Shown here piece by piece: positions 1,318-6,722 of a DNA stretch of 22,451 bases. Under the pieces are notes generated by a model that saw only the letters and a program-made list of their open reading frames with translations, did no database searches and was not told the origin of the DNA. Source of the stretch: a virus; IMG/VR virus record IMGVR_UViG_3300025671_012092, positions 1-22,451 of that record; one strand, 5' to 3'. The stretch's first letter is position 1. Every line of letters starts with the position of its first letter. The translations under genes were made by a program, and so were the position numbers.

Positions 1318-1548
1318 CTATACGTCAGGTTTGTCGAGAGAGCCGGCGGGCCGCGCTGTCTTGATGATGTGGATGACCAGGCCGAAGGTGATCAACATCC
1401 AGGCACAGGTGCCGGCGAATGCGCCGAGTAGCGCCTCGATGGTGCCGGTGCTGAGCAGGTCAGGCCCGAGCCAGGCGAGCCAGTAGCCGGTGCCGGCCAG
1501 GTACAGCAAAGCGCCCAGCAGGATCAGGGTGAGTTTCGTTGCGAACAT
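1318..1548 (-). CDS. Small two-helix membrane protein, unknown function
   Basis: A 76-residue protein with two hydrophobic segments, about residues 5-30 (ends LAWLG) and 38-63 (IEALLGAFAG to IHIIK), and a short charged C-terminal tail. I recognise no family. The ATG at 1548 has AAGGA six bases upstream, and that ribosome site directly abuts a 14-bp perfect palindrome (1560-1573). The stop codon overlaps the ribosome site of DUF4224, so it is probably co-expressed with the integrase unit. An inner-membrane location is inferred from hydrophobicity only. Confidence 0.65.
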   Translation of the reverse strand: MFATKLTLILLGALLYLAGTGYWLAWLGPDLLSTGTIEALLGAFAGTCAWMLITFGLVIHIIKTARPAGSLDKPDV

Positions 1549-1658: not shown

Positions 1659-2189
1659 ATGAAGCGATTTACTGATGCTATATTGAAATCTTTAGAGTAC
1701 AAAAACTGGTACGCCGCTCTATTTATGTCTTTGTCACTTCCGGACATTTGCTCAAAGCTTGAAGCGGCAAATAACAAGACAAGTGGGGTTAAGTACGCTG
1801 CTTGGTTTGATGAATATATGATGAATAAGTATTCCTTTCAGCATCCTCTTATGAACGGAAGAACTATATTTATGGATGGCGATTCATGCTACGCACTAAG
1901 ATGCTCGATGCTACATCAAGGTGATGCAGACCTAACCACTCAAAAGGTTCGGTCATTTTTAGATAGTATCCATTTCACAACAACAACTGGGCATTGCAAT
2001 CGCGTCAACGGCGTTTTGCAGCTAGATGTCAGTGCGTTTTGTACAGATGTCTGTAATTCAGTTGCTGAATGGCATGAGCGCTTTAAAACTAAAGATGGCG
2101 CCCAAGATAAGTTGAGAAATCTTTTTTTGGTTCATGTATCCGAGAGCAGTATTTTGGGTGGCTCAGTAGTTTTCGGTTCAAGTAGCTGA
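1659..2189 (+). CDS. Accessory protein with a possible HEPN Rx4H motif
   Basis: A 176-residue protein I do not recognise by name, though the DCYALRCSMLHQG block looks like that of a widespread uncharacterised family. R81-C-S-M-L-H86 fits the R-x4-6-H signature of HEPN ribonucleases, and a mostly helical N-terminal half would suit that fold. HEPN is an inference from the motif. The start is ATG 1659, preceded by AGAGGG (1648-1653); reading from 1539 would run through the opposing gene's start region. A -10-like TATACT lies at 1608-1613 with no clear -35 box. The gene is on the plus strand, against the operon around it, is visibly AT-richer than its neighbours and overlaps the end of the convergent DUF4406 gene by 58 bases. 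This suggests acquired cargo, possibly a phage-defence (abortive infection) gene. Confidence 0.75.
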   Translation: MKRFTDAILKSLEYKNWYAALFMSLSLPDICSKLEAANNKTSGVKYAAWFDEYMMNKYSFQHPLMNGRTIFMDGDSCYALRCSMLHQGDADLTTQKVRSFLDSIHFTTTTGHCNRVNGVLQLDVSAFCTDVCNSVAEWHERFKTKDGAQDKLRNLFLVHVSESSILGGSVVFGSSS

Positions 2190-2500
2190 CGCTCAACTGC
2201 TTTTTGAAGGCTTTCATGGGCTCCCACAACGCGCATCCCGAGGTGCTGGGCAATCAGGACTTCGAGCTGGGCGCCCTTCGATTCTTGCCAGCCGGACAGG
2301 GTGACCACGGTGTCGCAGTCCATCAGGGCGGCAATGTCGCGGCGCATACAGTCGGTCCAGGTGCCGCCGTCAGGGTTGATCTCGGCGGGGTTGGTGACGG
2401 CGTGGCCGGCGGCGCGCAGGTCGGCGGTCATGGCGTGGAAGGCTGCGAAGTTGAGATCGGGCAGGCCGGTCATGGGGCCGCTGAGGTAAATCCGTTTCAC
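2132..2500 (-). CDS. DUF4406 protein (nucleoside deoxyribosyltransferase-like)
   Basis: A 122-residue protein with the DUF4406 signature: an N-terminal IYLSGPMTG strand-loop, NFAAFHAMTADLRAAGH, NPAEINPDG, CDTVVTLSGW, then ESKGAQLEV near the end. The fold resembles nucleoside 2-deoxyribosyltransferases, so a nucleotide or base substrate is plausible, but activity is unproven. The start is GTG at 2500 with AAGGAC (2506-2511) five bases upstream; the longer ORF reading would run back through the methyltransferase gene. A CCGGGC-TAT-GCCCGG hairpin (2513-2527) lies just before the ribosome site. It follows the C5 methyltransferase in the leftward unit, and its last 19 codons overlap the convergent accessory gene. 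Confidence 0.8.
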   Translation of the reverse strand: MKRIYLSGPMTGLPDLNFAAFHAMTADLRAAGHAVTNPAEINPDGGTWTDCMRRDIAALMDCDTVVTLSGWQESKGAQLEVLIAQHLGMRVVGAHESLQKAVERQLLEPKTTEPPKILLSDT

Positions 2501-2512
2501 GATGAGTCCTTG

Positions 2513-2527
2513 CCGGGCTATGCCCGG
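2513..2527 (-). repeat. SD-adjacent hairpin (leader element B)
   Basis: CCGGGC-TAT-GCCCGG forms a 6-bp stem with a 3-base loop directly upstream of the ribosome site for the GTG start at 2500, the same arrangement as leader elements A, C, D and F. Confidence 0.6.
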
Positions 2528-2543
2528 GCGGTGGAGTGGGGAG

Positions 2544-4589
2544 TTATGCGGCGCGGGCTTGGCGTTGTTCCGCGCGCCACGGGTCGTTGGCCCGTGCCAG
2601 CGCGGCCATCGGCGGCGGGCTGACGCTGTTGCCGCACATGTGTACTTGCTGGGTCTTGGTGAACGGCTTGCCATCGGCGCCGTGGCTGATGATGTAGTCG
2701 GCCGGGAAGCCCTGAGCCTTGTAAAGCTCCGTGGGTTTCAGCATCCGCAAGCAGATGTCGACTATCACGTATGGCGTGCCTTTCACCATTACGGTGACCA
2801 TTGCTAGGCGGTCCTTGGTGGTGATCGTCGGTGCTGGTGAGTCGCAAGCGCTAGTGTTCTCGGTGCCGTAGTAGCTGATCAGGAAGGCGGCAACGCGCAG
2901 GGCGCCAGCTTTATGCTCTGGCGACAGCGTGAGCGACACCAGTGAACTTTTACCGCCGCCGCCGGCAGTAATGGTCGGCGCCGGATCTTCCAGGCCCTGG
3001 CCAACACTGCCGCCGAATGCCCGCTCCATGAATGCGCTGACCAGCCCGTGGTGCTGGCCGCCGGCGCTGACGGTGTGTAGCGGGTCATTGACGTCCCGTG
3101 CATCACAGTTGCCCCGCAGGTGAACCAGGTTTGCCGCCACCAGCTGCTGCTGGCTGCCGGTGTTGGTCACCGTGGTCATCGGGTTTTCAATGCTCTTGGC
3201 GTCGGTGGTGTTGAAGCCGCCATTCATCTGGGCCATGAACACCGTGGAGATGCCCATGGCGTGAGCGGCACCGGCCGGGCGCTGATAGTTGCCGCCGCTG
3301 GTGATGGTCGGCAATGGCTCGTCCAGCGCCTTGCCCGCGTCATCGAAACGGAACTTCACCAGGTGCGCCGCTGCGATCGCGCGGTGACTGCGAGTCATGA
3401 GCGTGCCGACTGGCTTATCCGCTGCTACCGGGTGCCCGGCGTAGACCGGGCCGCCGGCCCCAACCATCACAGGGCTGATCAGTGTCAGCTCACCGCGGTT
3501 CGCGCACGTGACCGTCGGCAGCGGTTCGAGCGGGTCGTTGATTCTGTCGCTGCCCTGGTGCGTTGCCGGTGCGATGATCGGGCTGACCACGCTGAAGGCG
3601 CCGCCCTTAGGGTAGGAGGTGATCGTGCGCAGCGGCTCACTGGCGGACTGCACTGCCTCGCCGGACCAGTTAGCAATCGGGACAATGAACGGCGCCGGGT
3701 TGTCGATGAGAAACTTCTTCATGCCCTTGGCAACGCGGCGCAGTGTGGCCGGGGCCAGGTCTTTCTTGCGACCGAAGATGCTTTTGCCCAGGTCGGTGAA
3801 GTCGATGCAGTCAGCAGCGGTTTTCCACTTCTGCTGGCCCTTGACCGGGTTTTTCGCGTGGGTTGGCTCCGGCCACACGATCGGCTTCCCATCGCACCGG
3901 GCGATCATGAACAGGCGTTCCCGGCTGGTTGGTGCGCCGAAGTCGCAGGCCTTAATCACCCTCCACTCAACGACATAGCCCATGCCTTCCAGCAGGGCTA
4001 CGAAACGGCGCCAAGTGCGGCCGCGCTGCCTAGGGTCAGGGATCAGGAACTGCTGGCCCACCGGCACAACTTCACCAGGTGCTGCAATTTCTCCGCTGAG
4101 TTTCACCACGCGGCCGGTGGCCTTGTCGCGCTTGGCGATCAGACGGCCCCACTGCAGGATCTGTTTCACGTTCTCAAGACTGATCACCCGGGGGCGCTTC
4201 TTGCCTCCCCACTTGAGGCCGATCCACGACAGGTTGCGGATCTCGCGCTTGCGCGGCTGACCGCCGGCCGCCTGGCTGTGATGGGTGCAGTCCGGCGACA
4301 TGTGGAACCAGCCCACGGCTTTGCCGCCGCACTCGGTATCCGGATCACCCTCGAACACGTCGGTGGTGAAGTGCTGGGCGCCTGGGTGGTTCACGGTGTG
4401 CATGCTGATCGCTTGCGGGCTGTGGTTCTTCGCCACGTTCACCGCGCGGCCCAGGCCCATTTCCAGCCCGGTACCGGCACCGCCACCACCGCAGAAGAAG
4501 TCGACAACGATCTCATCGTCCTGAGGGTTGAAGCCGAGTCCGTATTGGGTTTTGAAATCGAAGGGGTGTTTCTTCTGTTGTGCGGACAT
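2544..4589 (-). CDS. C5-cytosine DNA methyltransferase with internal repeat array
   Basis: Methylates cytosine C5 in DNA using S-adenosylmethionine. Motifs: SAM-binding DFFCGGGGAGTG (30-41), catalytic SPDC with Cys101, ENV (139-141), TSRERLFMIA (221-230), and the C-terminal ELYKAQGFP (621-629) with CGNSVSPPP (652-660). At 681 residues it is much longer than a typical 330-450 residue enzyme. The extra length lies between motif VIII and the C-terminal motifs, where about eight copies of a D/E-P-L-x-T-h-T unit recur at roughly 33-49 residue spacing (near 318, 352, 391, 424, 469, 502, 535, 584). The start is ATG 4589 with AAGGA six bases upstream. In temperate phages such enzymes commonly protect DNA from host restriction. 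It sits between the PP-loop gene and DUF4406. Target sequence unknown. Confidence 0.92.
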   Translation of the reverse strand: MSAQQKKHPFDFKTQYGLGFNPQDDEIVVDFFCGGGGAGTGLEMGLGRAVNVAKNHSPQAISMHTVNHPGAQHFTTDVFEGDPDTECGGKAVGWFHMSPDCTHHSQAAGGQPRKREIRNLSWIGLKWGGKKRPRVISLENVKQILQWGRLIAKRDKATGRVVKLSGEIAAPGEVVPVGQQFLIPDPRQRGRTWRRFVALLEGMGYVVEWRVIKACDFGAPTSRERLFMIARCDGKPIVWPEPTHAKNPVKGQQKWKTAADCIDFTDLGKSIFGRKKDLAPATLRRVAKGMKKFLIDNPAPFIVPIANWSGEAVQSASEPLRTITSYPKGGAFSVVSPIIAPATHQGSDRINDPLEPLPTVTCANRGELTLISPVMVGAGGPVYAGHPVAADKPVGTLMTRSHRAIAAAHLVKFRFDDAGKALDEPLPTITSGGNYQRPAGAAHAMGISTVFMAQMNGGFNTTDAKSIENPMTTVTNTGSQQQLVAANLVHLRGNCDARDVNDPLHTVSAGGQHHGLVSAFMERAFGGSVGQGLEDPAPTITAGGGGKSSLVSLTLSPEHKAGALRVAAFLISYYGTENTSACDSPAPTITTKDRLAMVTVMVKGTPYVIVDICLRMLKPTELYKAQGFPADYIISHGADGKPFTKTQQVHMCGNSVSPPPMAALARANDPWRAEQRQARAA

Positions 4590-4600
4590 AGAGAATCCTT

Positions 4601-4610
4601 GCCGGGCGGC
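4601..4610 (-). repeat. SD-adjacent leader element C
   Basis: GCC-GGGC-GGC precedes the AAGGA ribosome site of the methyltransferase gene and continues into GTGATC, matching leader element D (GCC-GGCT-GGC then GTGATT). The weak 3-bp stem alone would not be convincing; the shared flank is the evidence. Confidence 0.5.
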
Positions 4611-4641
4611 GTGATCTTTAAATTGGGGAGGGTGAAGTGAG

Positions 4642-5592
4642 TTATTCGCAGAGCCCATAGGCTGAAGAGCAGTTGCTCTGGCTGTCGGTTCGTGCGATGA
4701 GGTCGACCATGTCGAACTGGCGGCCGCCGCGCGCGGTGTTGCTCCAGTCGACGATTCTGTCAATTCCGTGTGTTACGGCGCTCACCTTGTCATCTGACCG
4801 GACGGTGGGGTCGGTGACGGTGGCGAAGAACGTAGCCGCGCCGCGCTTGCTGGCGATGCTTACCAGCCGCTCCCATTCGCGCACCCGGTCAACTTCCTCT
4901 GGCCACCTGGCCGCGATCTGCCGGAGCTCGTCTTTCGCGCACATGATGCAGGGCATACAGCCAACGCGATTGCAGCCTTGCAAGTACAGCGGGTTCGGCT
5001 TGATGCCGGCGGCCCGGTGAGCCTCGAATACCGAATCAACCGTCCATTTCAAAATTGGTCGGTAGTTGAACAGGCCGCCTCCAACCTCATCGCACTCTGG
5101 CAGGTACTTGCGGGCCGGCGACTCATCAGCCCGAACGCCTTGCCAGGACAGCAGCATGTTCTCGCCGTCCATGAGCGGCAGGTAAACCTGCTCGATGATT
5201 GGATTGCGCTTGAGCTCGTCGGTGCAGAAGCGCGCTTTGGTGCTGGGGAATCTGCCTTTCCACAGGCACAGGTCCAAAAATGGGTTGCCGGTAGGGTGAA
5301 GAACATCCAGGGCTCCGAGCACCACCGATTCCGCCACACCCTTCTCGCGCCACTTGGTCTCGATGAATTTGCGCTTGCCGGCGATCTGCCTGGAGAAGTC
5401 TGCTTTCACCCAACGGATGGGAACGCCAGTGGCTTCGGCCAGGTAGTGGATGTAGTCGTAGGTCTCTGGATGCTCATGCCCGGTGTCAGCCACTACCGCA
5501 CTGAGGTTCGGCACCTCCAGCTCGCGGGCGACCAGCAACGTAGCCGTGCTGTCTTTACCGCCGCTCATGCTGACGATATTGTGAGTGGGCAT
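4642..5592 (-). CDS. PP-loop protein of the PAPS reductase family with Cys cluster
   Basis: A 316-residue protein with a P-loop-like ATP pyrophosphatase motif SGGKDST (10-16), the D-T-G-H-E-H-P region (36-42) and ARFCTDELK (120-128) typical of PAPS reductase relatives. A tight cysteine group follows: C207, C212, C215 and C218 (GCNRVGCMPCIMC), which with C123 could bind a metal or Fe-S cluster. That is unlike classical assimilatory CysH and closer to sulfur-transfer relatives such as DndC or tRNA thiolases. The substrate is unknown; DNA or nucleotide thiolation, adenylation, or another adenylate reaction are possible. The ATG at 5592 has GAGGA upstream. It lies 52 bases before the methyltransferase start, which suggests joint expression and perhaps a joint role in DNA modification. 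Confidence 0.85.
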   Translation of the reverse strand: MPTHNIVSMSGGKDSTATLLVARELEVPNLSAVVADTGHEHPETYDYIHYLAEATGVPIRWVKADFSRQIAGKRKFIETKWREKGVAESVVLGALDVLHPTGNPFLDLCLWKGRFPSTKARFCTDELKRNPIIEQVYLPLMDGENMLLSWQGVRADESPARKYLPECDEVGGGLFNYRPILKWTVDSVFEAHRAAGIKPNPLYLQGCNRVGCMPCIMCAKDELRQIAARWPEEVDRVREWERLVSIASKRGAATFFATVTDPTVRSDDKVSAVTHGIDRIVDWSNTARGGRQFDMVDLIARTDSQSNCSSAYGLCE

Positions 5593-5603: not shown

Positions 5604-5623
5604 GCCGGCTGGCGTGATTCGTT
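5604..5623. repeat. Direct repeat, copy 1 (leader element D)
   Basis: A 20-base sequence, GCCGGCTGGC followed by GTGATTCGTT, is repeated exactly at 5880-5899. This copy lies between the divergent starts of the PP-loop gene and the small plus-strand membrane gene, and forms the leader of the PP-loop gene. Confidence 0.8.
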
Positions 5624-5668
5624 AAGGTGGGTTATATGCTTTGCTGCTTATCAAACAAGGAGGTGGTA

Positions 5669-5879: not shown

Positions 5880-5899
5880 GCCGGCTGGCGTGATTCGTT
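5880..5899. repeat. Direct repeat, copy 2 (leader element E)
   Basis: Exact 20-bp copy of 5604-5623. Unlike the other leader elements it does not precede a minus-strand gene; it lies upstream of the plus-strand PIN module and looks like a displaced leader left by insertion of cargo. Confidence 0.8.
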
Positions 5900-5924
5900 G
5901 ATATGGGGTATTGGTATGGGGGTT

Positions 5925-5985: not shown

Positions 5986-6270
5986 ATGTCACTTTCGATT
6001 CGCGAAGCATCCCGATCAGCAGTCGGTGCGGTAACTGAGCTCTTCGACGAACAATCAATCTCCAATGTAATGTTTGAAGAGGTTGATAAGGACACCGCCG
6101 GTAACTGGTTAATAACCGTAGGTTTCGATAGGAAGCTTGAAAAATCATCAGTGGGTTTGGGGGGGATGCTGGGTGAGGCTTTCAGAACCGAGCGAAAGTA
6201 TAAAGTTGTAAAGGTTGATGGCAGCGGCGAGGTGTTGTCGGTAAAAGACCGGCTGCTCGCTACCAAATGA
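5986..6270 (+). CDS. Partner protein of the PIN-domain gene
   Basis: A 94-residue protein of unknown family. It begins with a helical segment (REASRSAVGAVTELFDE), then alternating strand-like stretches (GNWLITVGFDRKL, ERKYKVVKVDGSGEVLSVKDR), an alpha-plus-beta pattern distantly like small stress or GvpO-type proteins, though I would not assign it. The start is ATG 5986 with AAGGA eight bases upstream. Its stop overlaps the start of the PIN gene (ATGA, 6267-6270), the classic arrangement of an antitoxin-toxin pair. No helix-turn-helix or other DNA-binding motif is evident, so an antitoxin role is only an inference from gene order. Visibly AT-richer than the surrounding operon. Confidence 0.7.
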   Translation: MSLSIREASRSAVGAVTELFDEQSISNVMFEEVDKDTAGNWLITVGFDRKLEKSSVGLGGMLGEAFRTERKYKVVKVDGSGEVLSVKDRLLATK

Positions 6271-6722
6271 AGCCGCGTGTTCTGATCGACACTAATCTTT
6301 TAATGCTACTTGTTGTGGGTTATTACGATAAAGATTTCGTTTCCGAACACAAAAGAACCAATAAATTTACGGCCGATGATTTTGAAGTACTCGAAATATT
6401 GATCGAAGGCGCGAATATCGTGTTAACACCTAACGTGTTGACGGAAGCTAGTAATCTTCTATGGCAATGTTCGGAGCCGCATAAATCTTTGATTAGGTCA
6501 AAACTCGCTCAAATTGCACATATTTGCGATGAGCAGTTTATTGCTAGCAGTGATGTGATTTCCTGCCCTGAATTCATGAACCTAGGCTTAACTGATGCCG
6601 GTATTCTGGAGCTCAAGAAGGTGTCAGGTCTAATTCTTACTCAAGATTTAGACCTGCATTTGGCAGCATTGGCCAGGGGGCTTGAAACCGAAAACTTCAC
6701 TCACTATAGAAATCTTATTTAG
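6267..6722 (+). CDS. PIN-domain protein (putative ribonuclease)
   Basis: A 151-residue protein with PIN-like acidic positions: Asp8 in VLIDTNLLMLL, a Glu in the LTEASNLLW segment (about 61), Asp in GLTDAGIL (about 112) and the C-terminal LTQDLDLHLAALARG segment. These would coordinate metal ions in a PIN nuclease that cuts RNA. The start overlaps the stop of the 94-residue partner gene by four bases, so translation is coupled. The pair is AT-richer than the flanking genes, opposes the early operon and ends at a strong bidirectional hairpin (6732-6766), which marks it as an autonomous cassette. It may be a toxin-antitoxin or defence module; the target is unknown. Confidence 0.8.
   Translation: MKPRVLIDTNLLMLLVVGYYDKDFVSEHKRTNKFTADDFEVLEILIEGANIVLTPNVLTEASNLLWQCSEPHKSLIRSKLAQIAHICDEQFIASSDVISCPEFMNLGLTDAGILELKKVSGLILTQDLDLHLAALARGLETENFTHYRNLI

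Follow-up and report, generated by a model that had tools for sequence, protein, structure and literature searches.

What is a small AT-rich gene, read against its neighbours, doing in the early region of a temperate phage, and what kind of protein might it encode? The DNA that raises this question, referred to below as the window, is a virus record of 22,451 bp, taken at its full length; its relatives include the temperate Pseudomonas phages UFJF_PfDIW6 and phiAH14a. Genes in the first 17 kb or so run mainly leftward, interrupted by two AT-rich stretches that read rightward. The one nearer the left end is the open reading frame (ORF) 1659–2189, called here the cargo gene. The features of this part of the window are the following.

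1–1065, leftward set: integrase-like ORF, named from reading the ORF.
1318–1548, minus strand: hydrophobic, membrane-like ORF of 76 amino acids, left flank of the cargo site (ORF list; DNA matches in other Pseudomonas phages).
About 1554–1593, no strand: conserved intergenic element with the palindrome GCCGCTATAGCGGC, marking the cargo site (identity in phages, viral contigs, consensus).
1659–2189, plus strand: HEPN-like cargo gene, 176 amino acids, member of phrog_18591 (ORF list, profile match, relatives).
1737–1751, plus strand: LPDIC motif, residues 27–31, with D29 as candidate acidic helper residue (conservation).
1899–1916, plus strand: R81-CSML-H86, an Rx4H motif, at the end of the predicted helix 74–87 (conservation in relatives, position in the model).
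2132–2674, minus strand: right-flank leftward ORF containing KRIYLSGPMTG, its true start probably internal (ORF list).
2544–4763, leftward set: cytosine-methyltransferase-like ORF, named from reading the ORF.

Directly adjoining the ATG of the cargo gene on its upstream side is a purine-rich stretch resembling a ribosome site, AGAGGGAAATC. The GC content of the ORF is 40.7%, against 58.9% in the remainder of the window, and the 531-bp segments of lowest GC in the whole contig are the cargo gene itself. It lies between leftward ORFs, and with the one on its right, the minus-strand ORF 2132–2674, it shares 58 bp, the two overlapping tail to tail. The first-pass annotation, which described an AT-rich gene on its own strand, was therefore right on both counts: the gene is the AT-richest stretch of the window and opposes its neighbours. 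A scan for sigma-70 promoters and terminators around it gave nothing above chance.

The second AT-rich opposing intrusion lies at 5986–6722 and consists of an ORF of 94 amino acids, followed by an overlapping ORF of 151 amino acids that reads like a PIN-domain nuclease (MKPRVLIDTNLL...). Neither has a match in Pfam, NCBIfam or PADLOC; the pair is perhaps a two-gene defence or toxin-antitoxin cargo. Just to its left, a 32-bp direct repeat, 88% identical, occupies 5604–5635 and 5880–5911 and is possibly a second joint sequence for cargo.

The cargo protein belongs to phrog_18591 (E 7e-41), a family of unknown function. It has no match in Pfam, NCBIfam or PADLOC, known defence models included, nor, by sequence, in the PDB. 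Relatives are present in phages of Acinetobacter, Escherichia, Arthrobacter, Gordonia and Bacillus, where some sit beside lysis genes, on plasmids, in many IMG/VR contigs and in 59 genome contigs from many phyla, archaeal MAGs among them. Five genome copies (L100, L106, L107, L109 and L114) are split over at least two frames, as expected of decaying cargo genes or assembly errors. In six pairs with measurable divergence the Ka/Ks ratio is 0.12–0.31, which indicates purifying selection; against the closest relative (L117, 59% identical) silent sites are saturated and pN is 0.27. This selection and the wide conservation rule out a spurious ORF. The gene is richer in AT than its flanks in 121 of 125 loci, and in all 69 loci where the flanks have a GC content of 50% or more; together with the recurrent cargo site described below, this supports the earlier proposal that it is an acquired gene. 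Its neighbours vary: at most 8 of the 118 lineages share a given neighbour family, counts that are approximate, since gene calling is crude in GC-rich DNA. The absence of a recurrent neighbour characterises it as a stand-alone, travelling gene, agrees with the suggestion that it has no antitoxin partner, and led us to reject the idea that it is one half of a two-gene system.

The gene had been likened to HEPN ribonucleases on account of R81 and H86, along with its composition, strand and position. In a single sequence such a motif means little, because Rx4H occurs in 21% of shuffles of the protein (Rx4-6H in 52%). Relatives were gathered by tblastn and by peptide patterns that exclude the motif, giving 38 non-redundant sequences. 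Of these, 35 have R81 and 34 have H86, which bears out the expected conservation and lifts the motif above chance; an earlier set of 47 rows had each residue in 46. P28 is present in all 38 and D29 in 35, the remaining three having glutamate. P28, D29, R81 and H86 are invariant in an alignment of 94 rows, but some of those rows were retrieved by means of the motif itself, and the alignment is therefore no independent evidence for the arginine and histidine; likewise, where YALRC..LH served as a search pattern, these residues were left uncounted in the matches. Outside one clade of four Sulfitobacter plasmid sequences (L009, L369, L370 and L371), R81 and H86 are each found in 34 of 34. In that clade H86 is replaced by tyrosine and C31 by alanine in all four, R81 by lysine and D29 by glutamate in three. 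That separated motifs change jointly suggests that D29, C31, R81 and H86 form one site; the Sulfitobacter copies are perhaps inactive or re-purposed. The residue after R81 is cysteine in most members, and asparagine in a phage subfamily (L043–L054) that carries R-N-A-F-L-H. In HEPN motifs the residue following the arginine is usually N, D or H (PMC3710099), a rule that the sequence of this subfamily matches; the more frequent cysteine departs from it and weighs against a HEPN assignment.

The AlphaFold2 model of the cargo protein, calculated from 94 sequences, has a pLDDT of 93.5 and a pTM of 0.88. Its first helix is formed by residues 2–13 and its second, which holds the LPDIC motif, by residues 17–35. 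These are followed by an insert consisting of a short helix and a hairpin, a third helix (residues 74–87) that ends in R81 and H86, several strands, and a last helix (residues 124–142). R81 and H86 are five residues apart on the one predicted helix. L043, a relative with the R-N form of the motif, is modelled with the same order of helices. The canonical HEPN order is a helix pair, an insert and a second helix pair (PMC3710099), and it is this order that the model has, with R81 and H86 ending the third helix. When the models were compared with the PDB by Foldseek, however, no significant match was obtained for either the cargo protein or L043; the most probable of the weak matches of L043 are chains of AbiV, with probabilities of 0.20 at best and E values of 2.5 or worse. 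AbiV (PDB entry 9bj7) is a small abortive-infection protein of the HEPN clade that is without the histidine of the HEPN motif (PMC3710099). The anticipated resemblance to HEPN folds shows in the helix order; the Foldseek scores do not reach significance.

Scanning the 94 family members against Pfam, NCBIfam and PADLOC yielded only scattered weak matches and no Pfam HEPN match. Among them, L043 matches the PADLOC model CARF_HEPN over the motif (E 4.8e-5), which, with 94 members scanned, is no more than suggestive of a HEPN relationship; CARF_HEPN relatives for a bridge profile were absent from 544 genomes. HHalign and hmmsearch comparisons with small, home-made and shallow alignments of pEK499_p136, Abi_C, DUF4145, HEPN and Cthe_2314 were not significant, and of eight pEK sequences, three exceeded the scores of their own shuffles, though only slightly. 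On reading its sequences, the pEK499_p136 HEPN family (PF18736) resembles the cargo family in having R-N-x3-H ahead of strands and a final helix, but the two have no significant sequence or profile similarity. Membership of the cargo protein in the HEPN group is probable, judging from conserved residues and a confident model with HEPN helix order; as neither Foldseek nor profile comparisons reached significance, we use the term HEPN-like and stop short of calling the protein a proven member.

The same comparisons leave room for a different small alpha/beta family, in which the conserved R, H, D and W would belong to another enzyme or a binding site and the gene would still be phage cargo, serving for instance in superinfection exclusion or counter-defence. 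The lack of significant structural and profile matches to HEPN speaks for this, as does the conservation of P28, W138, L25, L85 and H112, equal in degree to that of R81 and H86. We nevertheless consider it rather unlikely, given the helix order, the invariant arginine and histidine ending the third helix, the R-N subfamily and the CARF_HEPN match of L043.

Adjoining the cargo gene is a conserved element of about 40 bp that contains GCCGCTATAGCGGC, a perfect 14-nt palindrome, and closely precedes the start codon of the leftward gene 1318–1548. Over 39–40 bp the element is 100% identical in phiAH14a and SC_8_H2H8_2017, both of which are without the cargo gene. In the contig of the closest homologue (L117) the layout is the same as in the window: leftward gene, element, rightward cargo, leftward methyltransferase. 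A search for a 21-mer of the element, CCTTGCCGCTATAGCGGCTGA, finds it in at least 120 viral contigs, with a single copy in nearly every stretch. Because its consensus reaches the start codon of the leftward gene, the element may also be the leader of that gene; an operator and a recombination joint are further possible roles. In the 101 contigs with enough flank around the element, the right-hand 600 bp have less than 50% GC in 29 cases and the left-hand 600 bp in two. The longest right-hand ORF opposes its surroundings in 26 of the 29 AT-rich cases, compared with 9 of 45 GC-rich ones (Fisher p 2e-9), and related phages include empty versions, with no cargo at the element.

Cargo proteins at the element differ widely, and many match no defence family yet. 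Of 31 chosen from these, 27 were compared with Pfam and 23 with PADLOC. Among the families matched are HEPN_AbiU2 (L277), putAbiC (L140 and L257), AbiP and RNase LS/RnlA, the last including its HEPN domain, along with nucleases of the HNH or restriction type. A fixed site, varied cargo, empty versions and known defence genes among the cargo are the features of a prophage defence hotspot, and the window gene accordingly sits where related phages keep anti-phage genes. HEPN_AbiU2 (PF18734) and RNase LS/RnlA (PF18869, PF15935) are themselves RNase families of HEPN type with a connection to phage defence. Neither model matches the window protein, and RnlA, which is larger, comes with the antitoxin RnlB. 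The defence role put forward in the first-pass annotation is thus backed by a site shared with AbiU2 and RNase LS/RnlA genes, while defence activity itself we infer. Four further cargo proteins (L305, L298, L283 and L336) have no Pfam match and carry the R-x4/5-H strings RHNFAAH, RNMREH, RSKALAH and RHRVIH, respectively; judged by these strings they are possibly further HEPN-like genes.

These data are best explained by a single-gene abortive-infection RNase of HEPN-like type, carried at a spot where phages keep defence cargo, a reading we hold to be somewhat more probable than its negation. The gene would be a stand-alone ("moron") gene of a Pseudomonas temperate phage, and its product a small, divergent HEPN-type protein, probably a metal-independent endoribonuclease acting through R81 and H86, with D29 as likely helper residue and an active site at the interface of a putative dimer. 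Its most likely role would be to defend the lysogen against other phages. By analogy with Tha, a tail-activated HEPN anti-phage system of Staphylococcus aureus prophages that is triggered by tail proteins and restrained by an inhibitor and by antisense early transcription (PMC11087260), the gene may be expressed in the lysogen and its product harmless until a component of the incoming phage activates it. The activated protein would then cut RNA, and growth would stop before the invader finishes. During lytic growth of its own phage, the leftward early transcript, antisense to the cargo gene, may turn it down, again as in Tha. Tha is likewise a defence protein of temperate phages with a HEPN-type Rx4H motif (R265 and H270); its gene lies near lysogeny genes. 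However, it has about 300 amino acids, with an extra amino-terminal part, and a cognate inhibitor, Ith, whereas the cargo protein has 176 and its gene is without a recurrent neighbour. The likeness is not drawn from sequence.

The location inside the early leftward region, and relatives in many phages, in part beside lysis genes, would also suit a lytic-cycle gene, encoding an RNase or RNA-binding protein for host shutdown or for countering host defences. Yet the gene opposes the early genes, its family recurs on plasmids and in chromosomes, and it is accessory, related phages having the element without cargo, so we judge a lytic function quite improbable. HEPN toxins often come with partners, such as HepT/MntA and RnlA/RnlB, and the overlap of the cargo gene's end with a leftward ORF would yield antisense RNA, but a toxin of an addiction pair, with a small RNA, an overlapping antisense transcript or an unlinked gene as antidote, is a shade less probable still, as no neighbour family stands out across the 118 lineages and an Rfam scan around the gene gave no match.

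Both kinds of system are known already: phage-defence RNases of HEPN type, and hotspots of defence genes in phages. In the available text on P2/P4 and other prophage hotspots (Rousset 2022, PMC9122126), these are small sites with fast turnover of diverse anti-phage genes, like the cargo site, which differs in phage type and place, being in the leftward early region of Pseudomonas phages beside a conserved palindrome; that text does not list it among its hotspots. A search of open-licence papers, whose silence is weak evidence, gave no mention of phrog_18591, no account of the family as HEPN and no comparable Pseudomonas phage site. What is new is that the cargo gene adjoins the conserved element of about 40 bp common to at least 120 viral contigs. 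The fullest version of the favoured reading is doubtful when taken as a whole: an uncatalogued HEPN-like family would serve across many phyla as a single-gene RNase of abortive infection that has neither an antitoxin nor a sensor as partner, and would occupy here an undescribed defence-cargo site of Pseudomonas phages, in which a palindromic element anchors opposing cargo and an early antisense transcript switches it off in the lytic cycle.

The one-gene HEPN-like reading offers a testable function for a widely distributed family of phage genes that has none assigned. The cargo site, which a single DNA pattern finds, can be used to list new anti-phage genes from Pseudomonas phages. A one-gene HEPN system would also raise the question of how a single small RNase stays quiet until infection.
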